From NCBI RefSeq assembly GCF_030534335.1, contig NZ_CP130565.1:2005501-2069500 (forward strand): a DNA stretch of 64,000 nt, given 5' to 3'. Below the pieces are notes generated by a model that made no database searches, had not been told where the DNA came from, and saw only the letters and a program-made list of their open reading frames with translations. This DNA comes from Marivirga harenae. GTDB taxonomy: Bacteria; Bacteroidota; Bacteroidia; Cytophagales; Cyclobacteriaceae. A program made the position numbers and the translations under genes. This document shows, in pieces, positions 33,916 through 64,000 of this stretch (its first letter is position 1; every line of letters starts with the position of its first letter).

Positions 33916-34479
33916 TTTTATATTTTAGATCTTGAAGTTTTGATTTCATAGGTACTAAAAAAAAGACTAGTGATATGTGTTCTGTGTGGGCAAGTAGAAG
34001 TACAAAACAGCGGGCCAACGGATGGATTTGGGATGTCCGCCAGCTGGCGGATTGTCTTGAATTTTTGCCAGCCAGAGGCTGACCAGCCTCTAGCTGATTT
34101 CTTTTTGTTCAAGTGCTGGCAGTGTATTGAACTGAACTTCAATGAAGATAACAAATTTCTGCTGTGTTAACGGAAGTGAGCGAGGGCTAAACAGCCTTTG
34201 GCTGTTCTTTTGTTTTCTTTTGATTCTTTTGTGGTTAAATTTCCAGCTTTAGCTGGTTTATAGTCTTGTTATATAGTAGCAAAAAGAAAGTAAAGTAAAT
34301 TTGAAATGCTAATGAATAATTAATTTGAAAACTGGAATCATGGTAAATCTTAGCACTAAGATTTTATTTCCCAAGATTATTCCGAGTTTCCGAATCAAAA
34401 AAGAAAGAGCCCTTAAGATTTGTGAAAGTAAAGATTGATTTCTTTCATTAACATCTAAAAAGATTCTCATTATAAAACT
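33916..34479. other. Palindrome-rich spacer between addA-like and addB-like genes
   Basis: This 564-base stretch has no convincing gene, although short frames are open. It contains a run of hairpins: CCGCCAGCTGGCGG at 34037-34050, CAGCCAGAGGCTG at 34069-34081 facing CAGCCTCTAGCTG at 34084-34096, ACAGCCTTTGGCTGT at 34191-34205 and CCAGCTTTAGCTGG at 34243-34256. The segment CTTTTGTGGTTAAA at 34226-34239 recurs in the arginine cluster at 51630-51643. The GCCAGAGGC-type core resembles the REP copies flanking the transposase gene at 59.6-60.5 kb. Confidence 0.7.
34037..34096. repeat. REP-like palindrome cluster
   Basis: Three palindromic elements lie within 60 bases: a perfect 14-base palindrome at 34037-34050, and two facing elements with GCCAGAGGC- and GCCTCTAGC-type cores at 34069-34081 and 34084-34096. 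The pair forms an inverted repeat, as in BIME units. The core resembles that of the REP copies beside the RAYT gene at 59741-60271. Confidence 0.6.
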
Positions 34480-57880: not shown

Positions 57881-58795
57881 TTGTCTTTTGAAGTTCACAT
57901 ATTAGGCTCCAATTCGGCAGCCCCAGCTCATGGAAGGCATCATACTTCGCAGGTCTTGCGGATTCAAGACATGCAAATCATGATTGATTGCGGAGAGTCT
58001 GCACAAATTCAAATGAAAAAATATGGCTTAAGAAAAAATCGCTTAAGCCATATTTTTATTAGTCATTTGCACGGGGATCATTTCTTAGGTCTTATGGGAC
58101 TGCTATCCACCATGCATTTGAATGGAAGAAAAACTGATTTATATCTGTATGGGCCTCTTGGCTTATCTGAAATTATTCAGCTTCATTTAAAGTATGCGAA
58201 TACGCATTTAAGTTACCTTATTCATTTCCAGGAACTAAGGGGAGATCAATCAGAATTGATCTTAGATCACCCCAAATTAACAGTTCGAACCATTCCACTC
58301 AATCACAGAATTCCATGCACTGGGTTTTTAATTAAAGAACAACCTAAACCAAAAAGGCTGAAGAAAGAAAAAGTAGGAGAATTGAGCGTGCGTGATATTA
58401 ACATCCTAAAGAAGGGAAAGGATGTAGTGAATGAAGCCGGGGAAGTGAAATTTAAAAATTCGGATTACACCTTACCAGCAAAGCGATCGAGGAGTTATGC
58501 TTATTGCTCTGATACTAAATACAATGAAGACATCATTCCTTTAGTGAAGGAAGTGGATTTACTTTATCATGAAGGAACATTTCTACATGAGAACTTGGAA
58601 AGGGCTGAAGCGACCTATCATACAACTGCGAAGCAAGCAGGTATTTTTGCTCAAAAATCAAAAGTGGGTCAATTGTTGATTGGTCATTTTTCAAATCGCT
58701 ATAAAGAGTTAGATCCCTTACTGGAAGAAGCTCAAAAGGAATTTGCTAATACTGCCTTGGCACAAGAAGGCCAAGTTTTTACTATAGAAGAATAA
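57881..58795 (+). CDS. rnz: Ribonuclease Z
   Basis: This 304-residue metallo-beta-lactamase fold nuclease processes tRNA 3' ends. The start is TTG (MSFEVHILGSNSAAP), which fits the usual N-terminus; no ATG is near. The HxHxDH motif is SHLHGDHFLG near residue 62, later ligands are in IPLNHR (near residue 142), YCSDTKYNED and IGHFSNRY. The length is normal for the short form. It is followed after one base by the transporter gene. Confidence 0.94.
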   Translation: MSFEVHILGSNSAAPAHGRHHTSQVLRIQDMQIMIDCGESAQIQMKKYGLRKNRLSHIFISHLHGDHFLGLMGLLSTMHLNGRKTDLYLYGPLGLSEIIQLHLKYANTHLSYLIHFQELRGDQSELILDHPKLTVRTIPLNHRIPCTGFLIKEQPKPKRLKKEKVGELSVRDINILKKGKDVVNEAGEVKFKNSDYTLPAKRSRSYAYCSDTKYNEDIIPLVKEVDLLYHEGTFLHENLERAEATYHTTAKQAGIFAQKSKVGQLLIGHFSNRYKELDPLLEEAQKEFANTALAQEGQVFTIEE

Positions 58796-58796
58796 A

Positions 58797-59600
58797 ATGG
58801 ATGCGGTAAAGTCAAACGGGTCGCTCAATAGAAAAAAAAGAAATCTCTTTATTGTATTAAGCGGGATATTCCTAACCAATGCTCTGTTAGCTGAGATTCT
58901 AGGGGTGAAGATTTTTTCGGCTGAAGCCACTTTGGGTTTTCCACCCGCTCAGATCAAACTGTTTGGAGACTTTGTATTAGATTTTAATCTTACTGCAGGC
59001 GTAATCATTTGGCCTATTGTGTTTGTCACCACTGATATTATTAATGAATATTTCGGGAAAAAGGGCGTTCGCAGAATTAGCTTTTTGACTGCATTGTTTA
59101 TTCTCTATTCTTTTTTTGTGATTTATGGTGTTACAAAATTAGCTCCCGCTGATTTCTGGTTAAACGTTAATTCACCTGATCCACAAGGCAATGAATTCAA
59201 TATCAATTATGCGTATGGAGTAATTTTTCAGCAGGGTTTAGGGATTATTTTGGGCTCCTTAACTGCTTTCTTGATCGGACAGTTTTTGGATGTGTTGGTT
59301 TTTCAGCACCTAAGAAAATTTACCGGAAGTGGAAAAATTTGGCTCAGGGCAACAGGCTCTACTTTAGTCAGCCAGTTAGTAGATAGCTTTGTGGTGCTTT
59401 GGATTGCCTTCTTTGTTTTTGGGAATTGGAGCATGGAGCAAGTGCTTTCTGTTGGAGTCATTAATTATATATATAAAGGTGCACTGGCTATTTTACTCAC
59501 GCCACTTCTTTACATAGCTCATTTCTTTATAGATCGGTATTTAGGAAAGGAAAATTCGGAGAGGATTACTGAAGAGGCTGCTGGGGAGGGGTTTTTCTAG
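58797..59600 (+). CDS. Queuosine precursor transporter (YhhQ/VUT family)
   Basis: This 267-residue membrane protein has six or more helices and matches the YhhQ (DUF165) family: WPIVFVTTDIINEYFGKKG near residue 67 and TLVSQLVDSFVVLWIAFF near residue 190 are typical. E. coli YhhQ takes up queuine precursors preQ0 and preQ1 for tRNA modification. It follows rnz directly, a link between tRNA genes that is common in this phylum. The stop at 59600 lies directly beside the left REP copy. Confidence 0.92.
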   Translation: MDAVKSNGSLNRKKRNLFIVLSGIFLTNALLAEILGVKIFSAEATLGFPPAQIKLFGDFVLDFNLTAGVIIWPIVFVTTDIINEYFGKKGVRRISFLTALFILYSFFVIYGVTKLAPADFWLNVNSPDPQGNEFNINYAYGVIFQQGLGIILGSLTAFLIGQFLDVLVFQHLRKFTGSGKIWLRATGSTLVSQLVDSFVVLWIAFFVFGNWSMEQVLSVGVINYIYKGALAILLTPLLYIAHFFIDRYLGKENSERITEEAAGEGFF

Positions 59601-59710
59601 CTCGCCAGAGGCGGTAGTAATTTTCACTAGCCGCAGGCTAGCGGAAGATATAGATTGGGCTATCGCTAGCCTCTGGCTAGTGATGCTTACTTTTGCCTCC
59701 GGCAAGGATT
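59601..59710. repeat. REP/BIME copy on the left of the RAYT gene
   Basis: The copy contains palindromes CTAGCCGCAGGCTAG at 59627-59641 and CTAGCCTCTGGCTAG at 59666-59680, which face each other as an inverted pair (extended arms ACTAGCC and GGCTAGT). The outer GCCAGAGGC at 59604-59612 and GCCTCCGGC at 59695-59703 also can pair. It starts immediately after the transporter stop codon. Confidence 0.85.
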
Positions 59711-59740
59711 AGGAAGCTAAGTCATCCGGTACTGTATTCT

Positions 59741-60271
59741 TTAGCTTTCTAAGATCGTTAATGGACTATCGAAACATGCGCTACTGTATTTATAATATTG
59801 AGGTTCAGTCACAATGCCAGCCCTTACAGGATTTTCATGTATGTAGTTTGTTTTTTGATCCAAGATTTTACTGTCAGAAATTAGTGTTGGTTGATTATTA
59901 GTTTTCCAAAGTCTATATTCTCTAAATTGATTACTTAATGTTGCGAAATGCTTAAATAAGTTTAGAAGCCAGTAGCTTCTGCTTTCTTTGGGGTTATTAT
60001 TAATTTCTCTTATAAATTCTTTTGCAGTAAAGCTTTTAAACCTTCCTATTAACTCGTTTAAATCCTTATCAATTCTTCTGCATACCAAATGTATATGGTT
60101 GCTCATGATCACGTAAGAGAATATCTCTAGATTTTCATTTTTCTGACAATAGTAAAGATTTTCTACAATAATTCTTTTGTAATCTTCTCTATCAAATAAA
60201 TTTATCCAGCCCACCAAAGTTAATGTGATGAAATAGGTATCATTGGAAGTAGTTTTTCTGAATTGACTCAT
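59741..60271 (-). CDS. REP-associated tyrosine transposase (RAYT)
   Basis: This 176-residue Y1-type transposase-like protein has the HUH motif SNHIHLV (His59 and His61) and the C-terminal YIHENPVRAGIV (near residues 138-150) that marks the RAYT group within the IS200/IS605 superfamily. These proteins handle single-stranded REP DNA and are usually single-copy and host-maintained, not mobile like IS200. The gene is intact. Two REP copies in the same orientation flank it within 130 bases on each side. Confidence 0.92.
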   Translation of the reverse strand: MSQFRKTTSNDTYFITLTLVGWINLFDREDYKRIIVENLYYCQKNENLEIFSYVIMSNHIHLVCRRIDKDLNELIGRFKSFTAKEFIREINNNPKESRSYWLLNLFKHFATLSNQFREYRLWKTNNQPTLISDSKILDQKTNYIHENPVRAGIVTEPQYYKYSSACFDSPLTILES

Positions 60272-60361
60272 TGAAATAAGGTCTTGGTTTAAAGAATGAT
60301 GCTAAATTAAACACATGCTAGAAAAAGATAAAAAAAGCTTGTATTTATTTCGGCTATAAAC

Positions 60362-60469
60362 CTCGCCAGAGGCTGGAGTATTATCCACTAGCCGGAGGCT
60401 AGCGGAAGCGATTGTATCCAATCGCTAGTCTCTGGCTAGTAATGATTACTGTTACCTTTGATGAGGATT
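60362..60469. repeat. REP/BIME copy on the right of the RAYT gene
   Basis: The copy has palindromes CTAGCCGGAGGCTAG at 60388-60402 and CTAGTCTCTGGCTAG at 60425-60439 as an inverted pair, with the same order and spacing as the left copy and start CTCGCCAGAGGC. It differs by scattered bases, most outside the palindromes, as expected if stem formation is conserved. Confidence 0.85.
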
Positions 60470-60509
60470 CCACATCTTAGATCAATTCCATTATATTTAA
60501 GGAAAAAAC

Positions 60510-61886
60510 ATGAAGCCAATCCACATAGTGTTCCTATCACTACTAAGTATCATTTTAATTGCATCTTGTACTTCTAATAAGCAAATATCAGTTGATTTGA
60601 TACTGATGAATGCTTCCATTGTGGATGTACAAAACGATAAAATCATTGAAAATCAATATGTCACTATCAAAGGGGATTCGATATTTTCCGTGGGATCGAT
60701 GCTAGAGAAAGCTAATTATAATTTTAAAGAATCTATTGATATAAGTGGACAATATTTAATGCCTGGTTTATGGGATAATCATGTGCATTTTAGGGGAGGA
60801 GAGGATTTAATAGATGAAAATAAGGAGCTTTTGAGCTTATTTTCAAAGTTTGGAATTACTACTGTGAGAGATGCTGGTGGAGATATTACACCTTCCGTAC
60901 TTCAGTGGAGAGCCCAAATTAAGGAGAAAGAGTTGATTGGCCCTTACATTTTTACTTCTGGGCCAAAGTTAGATGGCCCAAAACCAGCTTGGGAAGGTTC
61001 TATCATAATTGAAAATCATACAGATATTCAAAATGCCTTAGATTCTTTAGAATCAATTGGAGTAGATTATGTAAAAATTTATGATGGAAGTTTATCAAAG
61101 GAAAATTTTTATGCCATTATTGAAGCAACAGAAAAAAGAAGCATGAAAGTAATCGGGCACATGCCGATGTCTGCTGATTTCCAAAAGGCAGTTTCTTTGG
61201 GTATGGATGGAAGCGAGCATATGTATTACATCATGAAAGCGTGTTCTCCTAAAGCCGATAGCCTGACCCAATTGGGATTGGGTTATGGTATGATGGAAAC
61301 CATTACAGATACCTATGATGAGCAAATGGCATATGAGTTATTTGCTGAATTGGCTCAAAAGCAAGTCTATATCACGCCTACCTTATACATCGGGAAAGTC
61401 CTTTCTAATTTAGCAGATGAAAATCACAGCACTGATACATTATTAAGTGAAATAGGAGTGGGCATACAAAAAACCTATGAAGGAAGAATAAAGTCTGCAA
61501 AAAGAGCTAAATCATCGGGTAGTCAAATGAGAGAAAAAGTCTCATCTTTGGCCAAGAATATGATTAGCCCAATGTTTGATGCTGGAGTCCCTATTTTAGC
61601 TGGCTCAGACTGTGGGCCATTTAATTCTTTCGTCTATCCTGGAGAAGCGCTTTGGGGGGAATTGTTTAGCTTGGTAGACGCTGGACTCACCCCGGCTGAG
61701 GCTTTGCAAACTTCCCTGATCCATGGACCGGCTTTTATGGATTTGCAAAAGGAATATGGAAGTGTAGAAAAGGGGAAAGTAGCGGATTTACTCATCTTAG
61801 ATAAAAATCCTTTAGAAGATCTTCAAAATATGAGGAGTTTAGATAGGGTAATCTTAAAAGGAGATTTTACTGATAAAGGGAATTAA
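60510..61886 (+). CDS. Amidohydrolase-family lipoprotein
   Basis: This 458-residue protein has a lipoprotein signal with Cys20 (IILIASCTSNKQ) and an imidazolonepropionase-like amidohydrolase barrel. Metal-site regions are DNHVHFRGG (near residue 91), the Lys-containing VDYVKIYDGS, VIGHMPMSA, GSEHMYYIM and AGSDCGPFNS (near residue 370). Family members hydrolyse cyclic amides or dipeptides, and secreted forms occur in Bacteroidota. TATATTTA at 60492-60499 is a possible -7. It is isolated between the RAYT unit and polA. Confidence 0.88.
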   Translation: MKPIHIVFLSLLSIILIASCTSNKQISVDLILMNASIVDVQNDKIIENQYVTIKGDSIFSVGSMLEKANYNFKESIDISGQYLMPGLWDNHVHFRGGEDLIDENKELLSLFSKFGITTVRDAGGDITPSVLQWRAQIKEKELIGPYIFTSGPKLDGPKPAWEGSIIIENHTDIQNALDSLESIGVDYVKIYDGSLSKENFYAIIEATEKRSMKVIGHMPMSADFQKAVSLGMDGSEHMYYIMKACSPKADSLTQLGLGYGMMETITDTYDEQMAYELFAELAQKQVYITPTLYIGKVLSNLADENHSTDTLLSEIGVGIQKTYEGRIKSAKRAKSSGSQMREKVSSLAKNMISPMFDAGVPILAGSDCGPFNSFVYPGEALWGELFSLVDAGLTPAEALQTSLIHGPAFMDLQKEYGSVEKGKVADLLILDKNPLEDLQNMRSLDRVILKGDFTDKGN

Positions 61887-61979
61887 TTATAACTTTAAAG
61901 GAATTGTTTGTTTGTCATTCCTTTTCGGTCAACAATTTTCTAACTTTAAAATCTGTTTTAACTCCGAAATTATTATCAA

Positions 61980-64000
61980 ATGAGCAATACACCTGAATCA
62001 GATAAAAAGTTATTTCTTCTAGATGCAATGGCACTTATTTATCGTGCTCACTTTGCCTTTAGTAAAACGCCAAGAATAAATTCCAAGGGGATGAATACTG
62101 GTGCGGCTCTAGGATTCACCAATAGCTTACTAGAGATTCTAAAAAAAGAAAAGCCTACGCATATAGGTGTAGCATTTGATACCTCCGCTCCAACATTTAG
62201 ACATGAGGAATTTCCCGCTTACAAAGCGCAAAGAGAAGAACAGCCAGAAGATATTCGGGTAGCTATTCCCTATGTGAAAAAAATTGTAGAGGCTTTTAAT
62301 ATCCCTGTTTTAATTCTTGATGGCTATGAAGCTGATGACATCATTGGTACCATTGCAAAGCAAGCTGGTGAGGACGGATTCAAAGTGTATATGATGACGC
62401 CTGATAAGGATTATGCGCAAATGGTAACTGAAAATGTCTTTCTGTATAAGCCTGCATTTATGGGTAATGGAGTGGATGTTTTGGGAATTGAGGAAGTTAA
62501 AAAGAAATTTGATATTGATAGAGTTGAGCAAGTAATTGATATTTTAGGATTACAAGGTGATGCGGTAGATAACATCCCTGGAATCCCAGGAGTTGGGGCT
62601 AAAACAGCAGTCAAATTTCTTAAACAGTATGGTTCAGTGGAAGGTCTTTTGGAACACACAGATGAATTAAAAGGGAAAATGAAAGAAAAGGTGGAAGCTA
62701 ATAAAGAACAAGCTTTGCTTTCTAAAAAATTAGCCACGATCAAAATAGATGTTCCACTAGAATATGAACCTGCAAAATTAGCGCTAGAGGAACCTAATGA
62801 AGAGACTTTAAAGGAATTGTTTGAAGAGCTTGAATTTAGGACCTTAATGAAACGGGTTTTGGGAGAGGAACCAGCAACAGCTGCAAAATCTTCCACTAAA
62901 GTGGATCCCGCTCAAATGTCTATGTTCACGGATACCCCGGAGGAGGCTGCTCAGAAAGATGAGGAACCAGAAGAAAGAAGGACGATAACTAATACGGTTC
63001 ATCACTATCATTTGATTGATACCCCCGAGTTAAGAGAAGACTTAATCACCTATCTATCAATACAGGATGAGTTTTGTTTTGACACAGAAACAACAGATTT
63101 GGAACCGACTGATGCAGAATTGGTTGGGCTTGCTTTCTCGTACGTAGCTGGAGAAGCGTATTATGTCCCTTTTCCTGCTGATCAAAAAGAAGCTCAAAAA
63201 ATAGCGGATGAGTTTAAGGAAGTACTTGAAAATGAAGGCATCATTAAAATTGGGCAAAATTTAAAATATGACATTCAAGTAATGCGTAATTACGGGATTA
63301 GAGTGAAGGGAAAGATGTTCGACACCATGTTGGCGCATTATCTTTTGGATCCTGAAACTCGTCACAATATGGATGTGATGGCGGAGAATTATTTGAATTA
63401 CAGTCCTGTTTCCATAACTGAATTGATTGGCAAAAAAGGAGTAAAGCAAGGGAATATGCGAGATGTGCCTATTACCGATGTTGTGGAATATGCTGGCGAA
63501 GATGCCGATATAACTTTGCAGTTGAAGCACATATTAGAAAAAGAGATAAAAGAAAATAATCTAGAAAATCTCTTACATGAGGTGGAAGAGCCGCTTTCTT
63601 ACGTACTCGCGGAGATGGAATATGAAGGGGTGAAAATTGATAAAGAGGCGCTGGCTAAAATGTCAAAAGAGTTGGAAACGGCAGCCTTGGAAGCCCAAGA
63701 AAAAATATTTGAATTAGCAGGACAAGAATTTAATATAGCTTCACCAAAGCAATTAGGGGAGATCCTTTTCGATAAAATGAAATTGGTAGACAAACCCAAG
63801 AAAACCAAAACAGGTCAATATGCGACTGGAGAAGAAATATTATCAAAATTGGCCAATGAACATGAAATTGCTGATAAGATTTTGGAATTTAGGGAATATC
63901 AGAAATTGAAATCTACATATGTGGATGCATTACCGAAATTGATCAGCAAAAAAGATGGCAGGGTACATACAGATTATCGTCAGGCTGTTGCTGCTACTGG
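61980..64000 (+). CDS. polA: DNA polymerase I (C-terminal part beyond the window)
   Basis: From the ATG at 61980 the frame runs off the right edge after 673 codons. Residues 1-280 form the 5'-3' exonuclease (LLDAMALIYRAHFAF, GYEADDIIGT, helix-hairpin-helix IPGVGAKTAVKFL). A Glu/Asp-rich linker follows at about 305-340. The 3'-5' proofreading domain is intact in its motifs: FDTETT with Asp368 and Glu370, GQNLKYDIQ, and YAGEDADI. The last residues (KDGRVHTDYRQAVAATG) enter the polymerase domain, whose catalytic aspartates lie outside the window. Confidence 0.95.
   Translation, partial: MSNTPESDKKLFLLDAMALIYRAHFAFSKTPRINSKGMNTGAALGFTNSLLEILKKEKPTHIGVAFDTSAPTFRHEEFPAYKAQREEQPEDIRVAIPYVKKIVEAFNIPVLILDGYEADDIIGTIAKQAGEDGFKVYMMTPDKDYAQMVTENVFLYKPAFMGNGVDVLGIEEVKKKFDIDRVEQVIDILGLQGDAVDNIPGIPGVGAKTAVKFLKQYGSVEGLLEHTDELKGKMKEKVEANKEQALLSKKLATIKIDVPLEYEPAKLALEEPNEETLKELFEELEFRTLMKRVLGEEPATAAKSSTKVDPAQMSMFTDTPEEAAQKDEEPEERRTITNTVHHYHLIDTPELREDLITYLSIQDEFCFDTETTDLEPTDAELVGLAFSYVAGEAYYVPFPADQKEAQKIADEFKEVLENEGIIKIGQNLKYDIQVMRNYGIRVKGKMFDTMLAHYLLDPETRHNMDVMAENYLNYSPVSITELIGKKGVKQGNMRDVPITDVVEYAGEDADITLQLKHILEKEIKENNLENLLHEVEEPLSYVLAEMEYEGVKIDKEALAKMSKELETAALEAQEKIFELAGQEFNIASPKQLGEILFDKMKLVDKPKKTKTGQYATGEEILSKLANEHEIADKILEFREYQKLKSTYVDALPKLISKKDGRVHTDYRQAVAAT

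Follow-up and report, generated by a model that had tools for sequence, protein, structure and literature searches.

The RAYT transposases of the Bacteroidota type form subclass 2.6 of a published survey (PMC6006769), equal to group 5 of Bertels, and occur for the most part in Bacteroidetes. In the available text of that survey, their key motifs are given as NH[LIV]H, WQ and YIH[QN]NP and their median length as 179 aa; their hairpins are called "atypical", were recognised by manual inspection and lack GT[AG]G. The recognition rule of this branch is left open there, as far as the available text goes. Among the matches listed in our search of freely readable full texts, this survey is the only earlier account of Bacteroidota REP anatomy. 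Canonical REPs are treated in the accessible part of PMC8266576: those of E. coli need GTAG together with a mismatch bulge, and in Marinomonas the GTAG lies 2 nt from the hairpin and the guide letters choose the dinucleotide to be cut. E. coli genomes without a RAYT keep REPIN populations, according to the accessible part of PMC8049555. Dispersal of the cognate REPs in the host is usual, not required, in the RAYT literature available.

The window analysed here is a stretch of 64,000 nucleotides from the genome of Marivirga harenae. It contains a RAYT gene placed between two BIMEs, each composed of two REP units in inverted order. As read from the letters of one strand, the REP unit has the order 5'-hairpin B, few nucleotides, RTAR, 2 nt, hairpin A-3'. 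Features of the locus are given below in window positions; the strand of a REP unit is that of its putative guide.

58797-59600, plus strand: queuosine precursor transporter, flanking gene, present in 10 of 10 genus genomes searched
59601-59710: left BIME, two inverted REP units with hairpins A inside and hairpins B outside
59602-59646, guide strand plus: REP unit with hairpin B at 59604-59612, GTAA at 59617-59620, 2 nt, and hairpin A at 59623-59645
59625-59633, equivalent to 60386-60394 in the right copy: interval in which the single BIME of a related genome (G006) switches from left- to right-copy sequence
59661-59705, guide strand minus: REP unit with hairpin B at 59695-59703, GTAA at 59687-59690, 2 nt, and hairpin A
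59741-60271, minus strand: RAYT (TnpA-REP) gene, 176 aa, without internal stop
59843-59845, minus strand: putative catalytic Tyr143 of the RAYT, in the motif YIHENP
within 60089-60097, minus strand: codons of His59 and His61, HUH motif NHIH of the RAYT
60362-60469: right BIME, direct copy of the left BIME, with the outer hairpin B of its right unit decayed
60363-60407, guide strand plus: REP unit with GTAT at the guide place (60378-60381)
60420-60464, guide strand minus: REP unit with GTAA at 60446-60449 and degenerate hairpin B (60454-60462)
60510-61886, plus strand: amidohydrolase, flanking gene

The gene had been called a RAYT in the first-pass annotation, and rightly so. Its protein reaches 96.9 bits with the NCBIfam model REP_Tyr_transpos NF047646 (cut-off 80) and 26.8 bits with Pfam Y1_Tnp (cut-off 23), and stays below the cut-off of the IS200 transposase model (20.9 bits, cut-off 55). 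When 65 of the 85 dereplicated RAYT proteins were aligned, W22, H59, H61, W122, Y143, N147 and P148 were invariant; Y143 is the putative catalytic tyrosine, judged from its place within the published YIHxNP motif. A single-sequence search of solved structures found no match at E 0.001; the profile of the RAYT alignment gave E. coli TnpA-REP, 4er8, as its best match (E 1.6e-8). The same structure, a RAYT bound to a REP hairpin, is the closest in fold (E 2e-7, TM 0.62/0.66) to an AlphaFold2 model of the protein (pLDDT 93.2, pTM 0.89). The nearest named relatives, among the matches listed, belong to Arcicella, Dyadobacter, Fulvivirga and a MAG labelled Chitinophaga, and the more distant of the listed matches to Campylobacterota. 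Taken together, the family model, the HUH motif, the single tyrosine and the flanking inverted REP pairs identify the gene as a RAYT.

A repeat of about 110 bases on both sides of the gene had also been reported, and the two copies (59601-59710 and 60362-60469) align as described. In direct orientation they are 87% identical over the first 47 nt and 80% over the last 49 nt, and blastn of the left BIME against the genome recovers the right one at E 1.2e-17. The left BIME begins directly after the stop codon of the queuosine precursor transporter. On either strand, each BIME folds with better energy than any of its 200 shuffled versions (z -4.5 to -5.8). If a perfect stem of 6 bp or more, a 3-nt loop and a GC content of 60% or more are required, the 64-kb window contains three hairpins (59627-59641, 59666-59680 and 60388-60402), all of them in the BIMEs; the fourth palindrome, 60425-60439, carries one T·G pair. 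These four had been taken for two inverted pairs of REP palindromes. Their places hold, and they make up only half of each unit: the outer hairpin B (GCC-nnn-GGC, for example 59604-59612 and 59695-59703) and the conserved spacer had been missed. The guide place of the four units reads GTAA, GTAA, GTAA and GTAT, and canonical GT[AG]G, 0-2 nt 5' of the hairpin, is absent from all of them. A covariance model described below scores the units of the left BIME, both in its training set, at 40.6 bits (59602-59646) and 44.3 bits (59661-59705), in both cases on the complement; those of the right BIME, outside the training set, reach 36.8 bits (60363-60407) and 20.5 bits (60420-60464).

A further copy had been suspected at 34069-34096. 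With 8.5 bits and E 3.8 against the unit model it is ruled out as a REP copy and represents a different palindrome. Several short palindromes of another kind lie in this part of the window (34000-34260), and the one at 34066-34096 recurs in the same-genus genome G009 (L108, 1743-1773) with 94% identity over 31 nt. No known RNA family matched 58000-62000 at threshold, the sole listed match having E 0.99, far below its gathering score, and no plasmid copies of 59601-60469 were found at E 1e-5.

Within the unit, hairpin B is of the GCC-RGA-GGC type and hairpin A is a 10-bp stem whose 7th pair, counted from the loop, is a conserved A·C mismatch. The spacing of RTAR was assessed without any model at 112 RAYT loci: hairpins near the genes, defined by 10 positions of which the inner 4 and no fewer than 8 in all are paired and by a loop of 3-4, were scanned on either strand for an RTAR upstream. 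A gap of precisely 2 nt between RTAR and the 10-bp foot was seen 63 times, spread over 35 loci; at gaps 0, 1, 3, 4 and 5 RTAR was found 14, 2, 27, 7 and 11 times, and at gaps 6 to 10 it was found 17, 9, 13, 13 and 11 times. The 63 tetranucleotides at gap 2 comprise 37 ATAG, 12 GTAG, 9 ATAA and 5 GTAA. Stem mismatches of the hairpins are A·C in 46 of 75 cases and fall at the 7th pair in 40 of 75. Hairpin B, counted for gaps 0, 2, 3, 5, 6, 8, 9 and 10, stands upstream of 45 of the 63 gap-2 RTARs; it is common also at gap 0 (7/14) and gap 3 (15/25), and the values at gaps 5, 6, 8, 9 and 10 are 4/11, 2/17, 1/12, 2/12 and 1/10.

Units collected by pairing only, without filters on their letters, agree in part. 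On the complement of the RTAR strand, CTAT is present in 26 of 110 spacers, against 5.5 in shuffled spacers (maximum 12). For YTAY the figures are 42 of 110 and, after shuffling, 21.0 (maximum 32); more than half of the spacers are thus without it. Triloops of hairpin A follow T..Y in 53 of 75 cases, with 13 of 75 in the reverse class, and those of hairpin B are split 90/119 against 11/119 in the reverse class; some units point the other way. The invariance of the loops and of "ta" in the alignment of 31 training units is no evidence, because the units had been filtered for T-first (or C-first) loops and for a spacer with "ta"; covariation in this alignment is strong and partly built in, because units were picked by pairing. 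An opposite reading of the strand, with T-first loops, CTAT 3' of hairpin A and a G·T wobble, was replaced by its complement, which is the same DNA. The complement is preferred because RTAR then lies 5' of the hairpin and the stem has a true A·C mismatch, like canonical REPs. From its position and conservation, RTAR would be the guide, and this architecture of two hairpins with RTAR as the guide seems to be a novel form of REP.

Such units concentrate at RAYT genes across the order. A finder that knows pairing only was applied to 85 RAYT loci, which are non-independent, several sharing a genus or genome. It asked for a hairpin A with 7 or more pairs, one mismatch being tolerated, followed after 7-15 nt by a hairpin B with 4 or more. 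It returned 118 two-hairpin units within 500 bp of the genes, in 46 of the 85 loci, compared with 5 units in 5 of 85 control stretches lying 1000-1500 bp away and 6.1 units on average in dinucleotide shuffles (10 sets). With stricter stems the numbers were 62 near RAYT, 1 in the control and 0.6 in shuffles. The covariance model, built from 31 RAYT-flanking units of many species, was run on 90 of the 112 RAYT loci and detected 116 units in 42 of them, many of these loci having trained the model; 30 loci were two-sided and 114 of the 116 units lay within 600 bp. About half of the RAYT loci have no such unit (39/85 by the finder, 48/90 by the covariance model).

The sequence of hairpin A tracks the distance between RAYTs. 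For the 34 of 42 unit-bearing loci whose protein is in the 65-protein alignment, the Mantel r is 0.34 (p 4e-4); it is again 0.34 (p 0.018) among 17 RAYTs less than 60% identical, and 0.51 for the inner five pairs of hairpin A. This correlation is expected if each RAYT keeps its own REP; shared descent could give part of it. At orthologous places in the genus, both arms of the stem change. Hairpin A reads CTAGTC/GGCTAG in G006 (L113) and CCAGCG/CGCTGG in G007 (L124), two pairs being changed on both sides, and CTAGCC/GGCTAG in G009 (L137) and CTAGCG/CGCTAG in G008 (L130), with one pair changed on both sides. L108 and L124 have a long flank match that does not cover the units.

Within the single 4.37-Mb contig of its own genome, the family hardly occurs outside the RAYT locus. 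Apart from the two BIMEs, blastn yields a single 46-nt fragment, at 1797464; the covariance model contributes a further two weak matches with E 0.009 and 0.02, and the one at E 0.02 lies some 5 kb away from one of the other RAYTs. The first-pass annotation had led one to expect a large cognate family in this genome; beyond the four flanking units, the fragment and the two weak matches there is almost nothing, and a dispersed family here is ruled out. Its picture was thus right in kind, incomplete in anatomy and wrong on abundance in this genome. Six other full-length RAYTs are present (G000:C1, L013-L018), 35-41% identical to the one in the window. L014, L015 and L016 are flanked by other two-hairpin palindromes; three of the genome's seven RAYTs, L013, L017 and L018, have by eye flanking repeats of other design, the loose finder giving a doubtful match at L013 and another at L018. 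The flanking palindromes of all six are unlike those of the window; a TTCGACATT/AATGTCGAA palindrome family is common to L014 and L016.

Some relatives show the reverse distribution. At E 0.01, blastn over 10 genus genomes gave 27 matches in G009, 20 in G005, 9 in G007, 8 in G008, 4 in G006, 3 in the own genome and 1 (weak) in G001, and none in G002, G003 and G004; merged within 500 bp, they occupy 17 places in G009 and 14 in G005. By blastn and model, the family is dispersed in four same-genus species without this gene, so it is not limited to genomes with the RAYT, and long stretches of the copies show 70-91% identity. Across the nine other genus genomes, G005 has the best full-length RAYT match, at 41% identity. 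For G009 the search gives at best a 24-residue piece (E 0.02), and the sole Y1_Tnp match of this genome is an 82.6-bit protein, taken for an IS200-type transposase. Short RAYT-like C-terminal matches were seen at G009:C2:510076 (24 residues) and G005:C1:726724 (41 residues), and are possibly RAYT remnants. An array in G005 (L225, G005:C1:2802900-2804900) packs four BIMEs with repeated spacers into about 0.9 kb; no RAYT is seen there by eye. A MITE of about 390 bp with ends CAATGTCGTTAAGTTAAG carries a BIME of this family at L116 and L122 (G009), L109 (G005) and L120 (G007), with both ends in L116, L122 and L120 and one in L109. Some same-genus copies moved inside this MITE, not by the RAYT.

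Among 341 genomes of the order, 92 have units at E 0.001; about 18 candidates were scored per genome, and unit counts per genome are therefore at least values. Units are carried by 24 of the 26 genomes with a RAYT at 1e-44 or better and by 68 of the 315 others. As 17 of these 26 supplied training units, the untrained ones are to be viewed separately: 7 of 9 have units, G140 and G164 being without. Two observations had been named in advance as speaking against a cognate family, palindromes occurring only here and palindromes equally common in relatives without the gene. Taken literally, the first is what the own genome shows, and the second is surpassed, with more copies where the gene is missing. 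The link between RAYT and REP is nevertheless kept, because units cluster at related RAYTs across the order and are present in a much larger share of the genomes that have a close RAYT.

Genomes with at least 6 units and no RAYT at 1e-38 number 31. When 20 of them were searched at 1e-8, 13 had a more distant RAYT-like match and 7 had none. A Y1_Tnp search of these 7 detected Y1 proteins in four genomes and, in G096, a broken fragment of 22 bits; it found nothing in G338 and G320, which are nearly complete genomes with large populations of two-hairpin REP units; all nine places fetched from G338 have two facing units, one of the 18 units being weak (23 bits). A RAYT in G338 or G320 could be missed, because the RAYT of the window itself scores only 26.8 bits on Y1_Tnp. 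In G261 (L209, G261:C1:625086-625310), a diverged Y1 gene is flanked by two units of 44.1 and 41.8 bits and is a cognate RAYT that the RAYT query missed at 1e-8.

One relative preserves the site in another state. Beside the queuosine precursor transporter, G006 has one chimeric BIME and no RAYT. As far as window position 59624 it carries the left-copy letter at 8 sites specific to that copy and, from 59634 on, it agrees with the right copy at informative sites with one exception; some of the informative sites are in unique flanks outside the repeat, and a few match neither copy. The switch falls in or next to the 5' arm of hairpin A. This is the state of the window minus "RAYT + one BIME", the footprint of a loss or a gain, and the same product is predicted by recombination between the BIMEs (deletion) and by insertion of a RAYT-BIME circle. 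We lean towards deletion by recombination between the BIMEs, because the REPs dispersed in the genus suggest an older RAYT. Four other close species (L070, L071, L073 and L074) have no blastn match to window 59599-60482, and so no BIME.

We consider it probable that the locus is a REPtron, that is, a domesticated Y1 HUH transposase (RAYT) with its cognate two-hairpin REP family. In such a system, when the locus is single-stranded, a RAYT dimer would bind the folded hairpin A, reading its stem mismatch. RTAR as the guide would pick a nearby dinucleotide, and Tyr143 would cut and join the chosen dinucleotide, by which BIMEs could be moved or recombined. The data themselves establish the protein family, its fold, the anatomy, conservation and distribution of the units and the single-BIME footprint; from these we infer binding, cutting, the guide role and the active strand. 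With one gene, two BIMEs and almost no offspring, the system of the own genome is near rest.

Three other explanations of the locus were weighed. The palindromes could be bidirectional terminators, or mRNA 3'-end hairpins of converging genes, and the RAYT incidental. The left BIME lies right after the transporter stop codon, and it contains terminator-like matches at 59661 and 59602, with 4 such matches in the 1.5-kb stretch against 1.0 in shuffles. Their T-runs are weak, however, units at RAYT flanks are far above control and copies are dispersed in same-genus genomes, and the fixed RTAR spacing and fixed A·C mismatch are no features of terminators; we hold this explanation to be very unlikely, a secondary terminator role of the BIMEs being possible. 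Alternatively, the gene might be an autonomous IS200/IS605-like element with the BIMEs as its two ends, in line with the Y1 HUH fold, the hairpins on both sides and the precise absence of "RAYT + one BIME" in G006. Against this, the gene has no second copy in the genome, its full-length paralogs there being just 35-41% identical, and the best full-length match in nine other genus genomes reaches 41%. Moreover, both of its ends are the same palindromic double repeat in direct order, not distinct left and right ends, and the IS200 model gives 20.9 bits against 55. This makes it the most improbable of the readings.

A third possibility is that the REPs owe their spread not to the RAYT but to a different agent, either a MITE with GTTAAGTTAAG at its ends or homologous recombination. 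Five of 22 same-genus REP loci (L116, L122, L109, L120 and L128) share 270-400 bp around the BIME, with both GTTAAGTTAAG ends in three of the five, one in L109 and none in L128; the insertion at L120 has an empty site in G008 (L130, near 2271), and G338 and G320 have large REP populations and an empty Y1 search. Yet a common stretch of this kind is missing from the other 17 of the 22 loci, unless they occupy the same orthologous site; the MITE end finds no match in the window, and units concentrate at RAYT genes. The diverged gene of G261 also demonstrates that a RAYT which seems to be absent may have been overlooked. Spread by such an agent alone is in our view quite unlikely. A wider conjecture is that the "atypical" Bacteroidota REPs include one coherent two-hairpin, RTAR-guided class whose populations stay intact in the RAYT-free genomes G338, G320 and G009 through an agent that is not their own RAYT; the hairpins might benefit the host, or another system might mobilise them in trans. 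We regard this as rather unlikely, its estimate having been lowered because G261 shows that some "RAYT-free" genomes may hide a RAYT.

For the REPtron reading, the rule RTAR-N2-hairpin, together with the conserved mismatch, makes Bacteroidota REPs searchable by model; it also ties them to the mechanism of E. coli and Marinomonas and gives cheap predictions of cleavage. The genus offers a natural series around loss of the RAYT: a gene with almost no offspring, a single-BIME scar, and offspring without the gene.

Compared with the systems described in the accessible parts of the papers cited, the locus shares some traits with each and differs from each. The RAYT is close to the Bacteroidota branch (group 5 of Bertels, subclass 2.6 of Quentin). 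Like members of subclass 2.6 (PMC6006769), it is of similar size (176 aa), has NHIH and is flanked by hairpins without GT[AG]G at the foot; unlike them, it has WK and YIHENP, one residue off each motif, WQ being the consensus in the majority of the 65 aligned RAYT proteins. In contrast to the account of that subclass in the available text, the hairpins of the window fall into units of two, with 2 nt between RTAR and the foot. With canonical REPs (PMC8266576, in its accessible part) it has in common a tetranucleotide 5' of the hairpin, at 2 nt as in Marinomonas, and a stem mismatch as in E. coli. The guide differs, being RTAR, mostly GTAA, and not GTAG, an extra hairpin B lies 5' of it, and the copy number is a handful where theirs is hundreds. 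As with E. coli REPINs (PMC8049555, accessible part), REP copies persist in genomes free of the gene, but the species with the gene is here poorer in copies than its relatives without it. The TIRtrons, or TIRYT, as available in PMC3733652, are likewise RAYT-like genes flanked by non-GTAG repeats, whereas the flanks in the window are direct BIME copies with REP-like geometry and not terminal inverted repeats.
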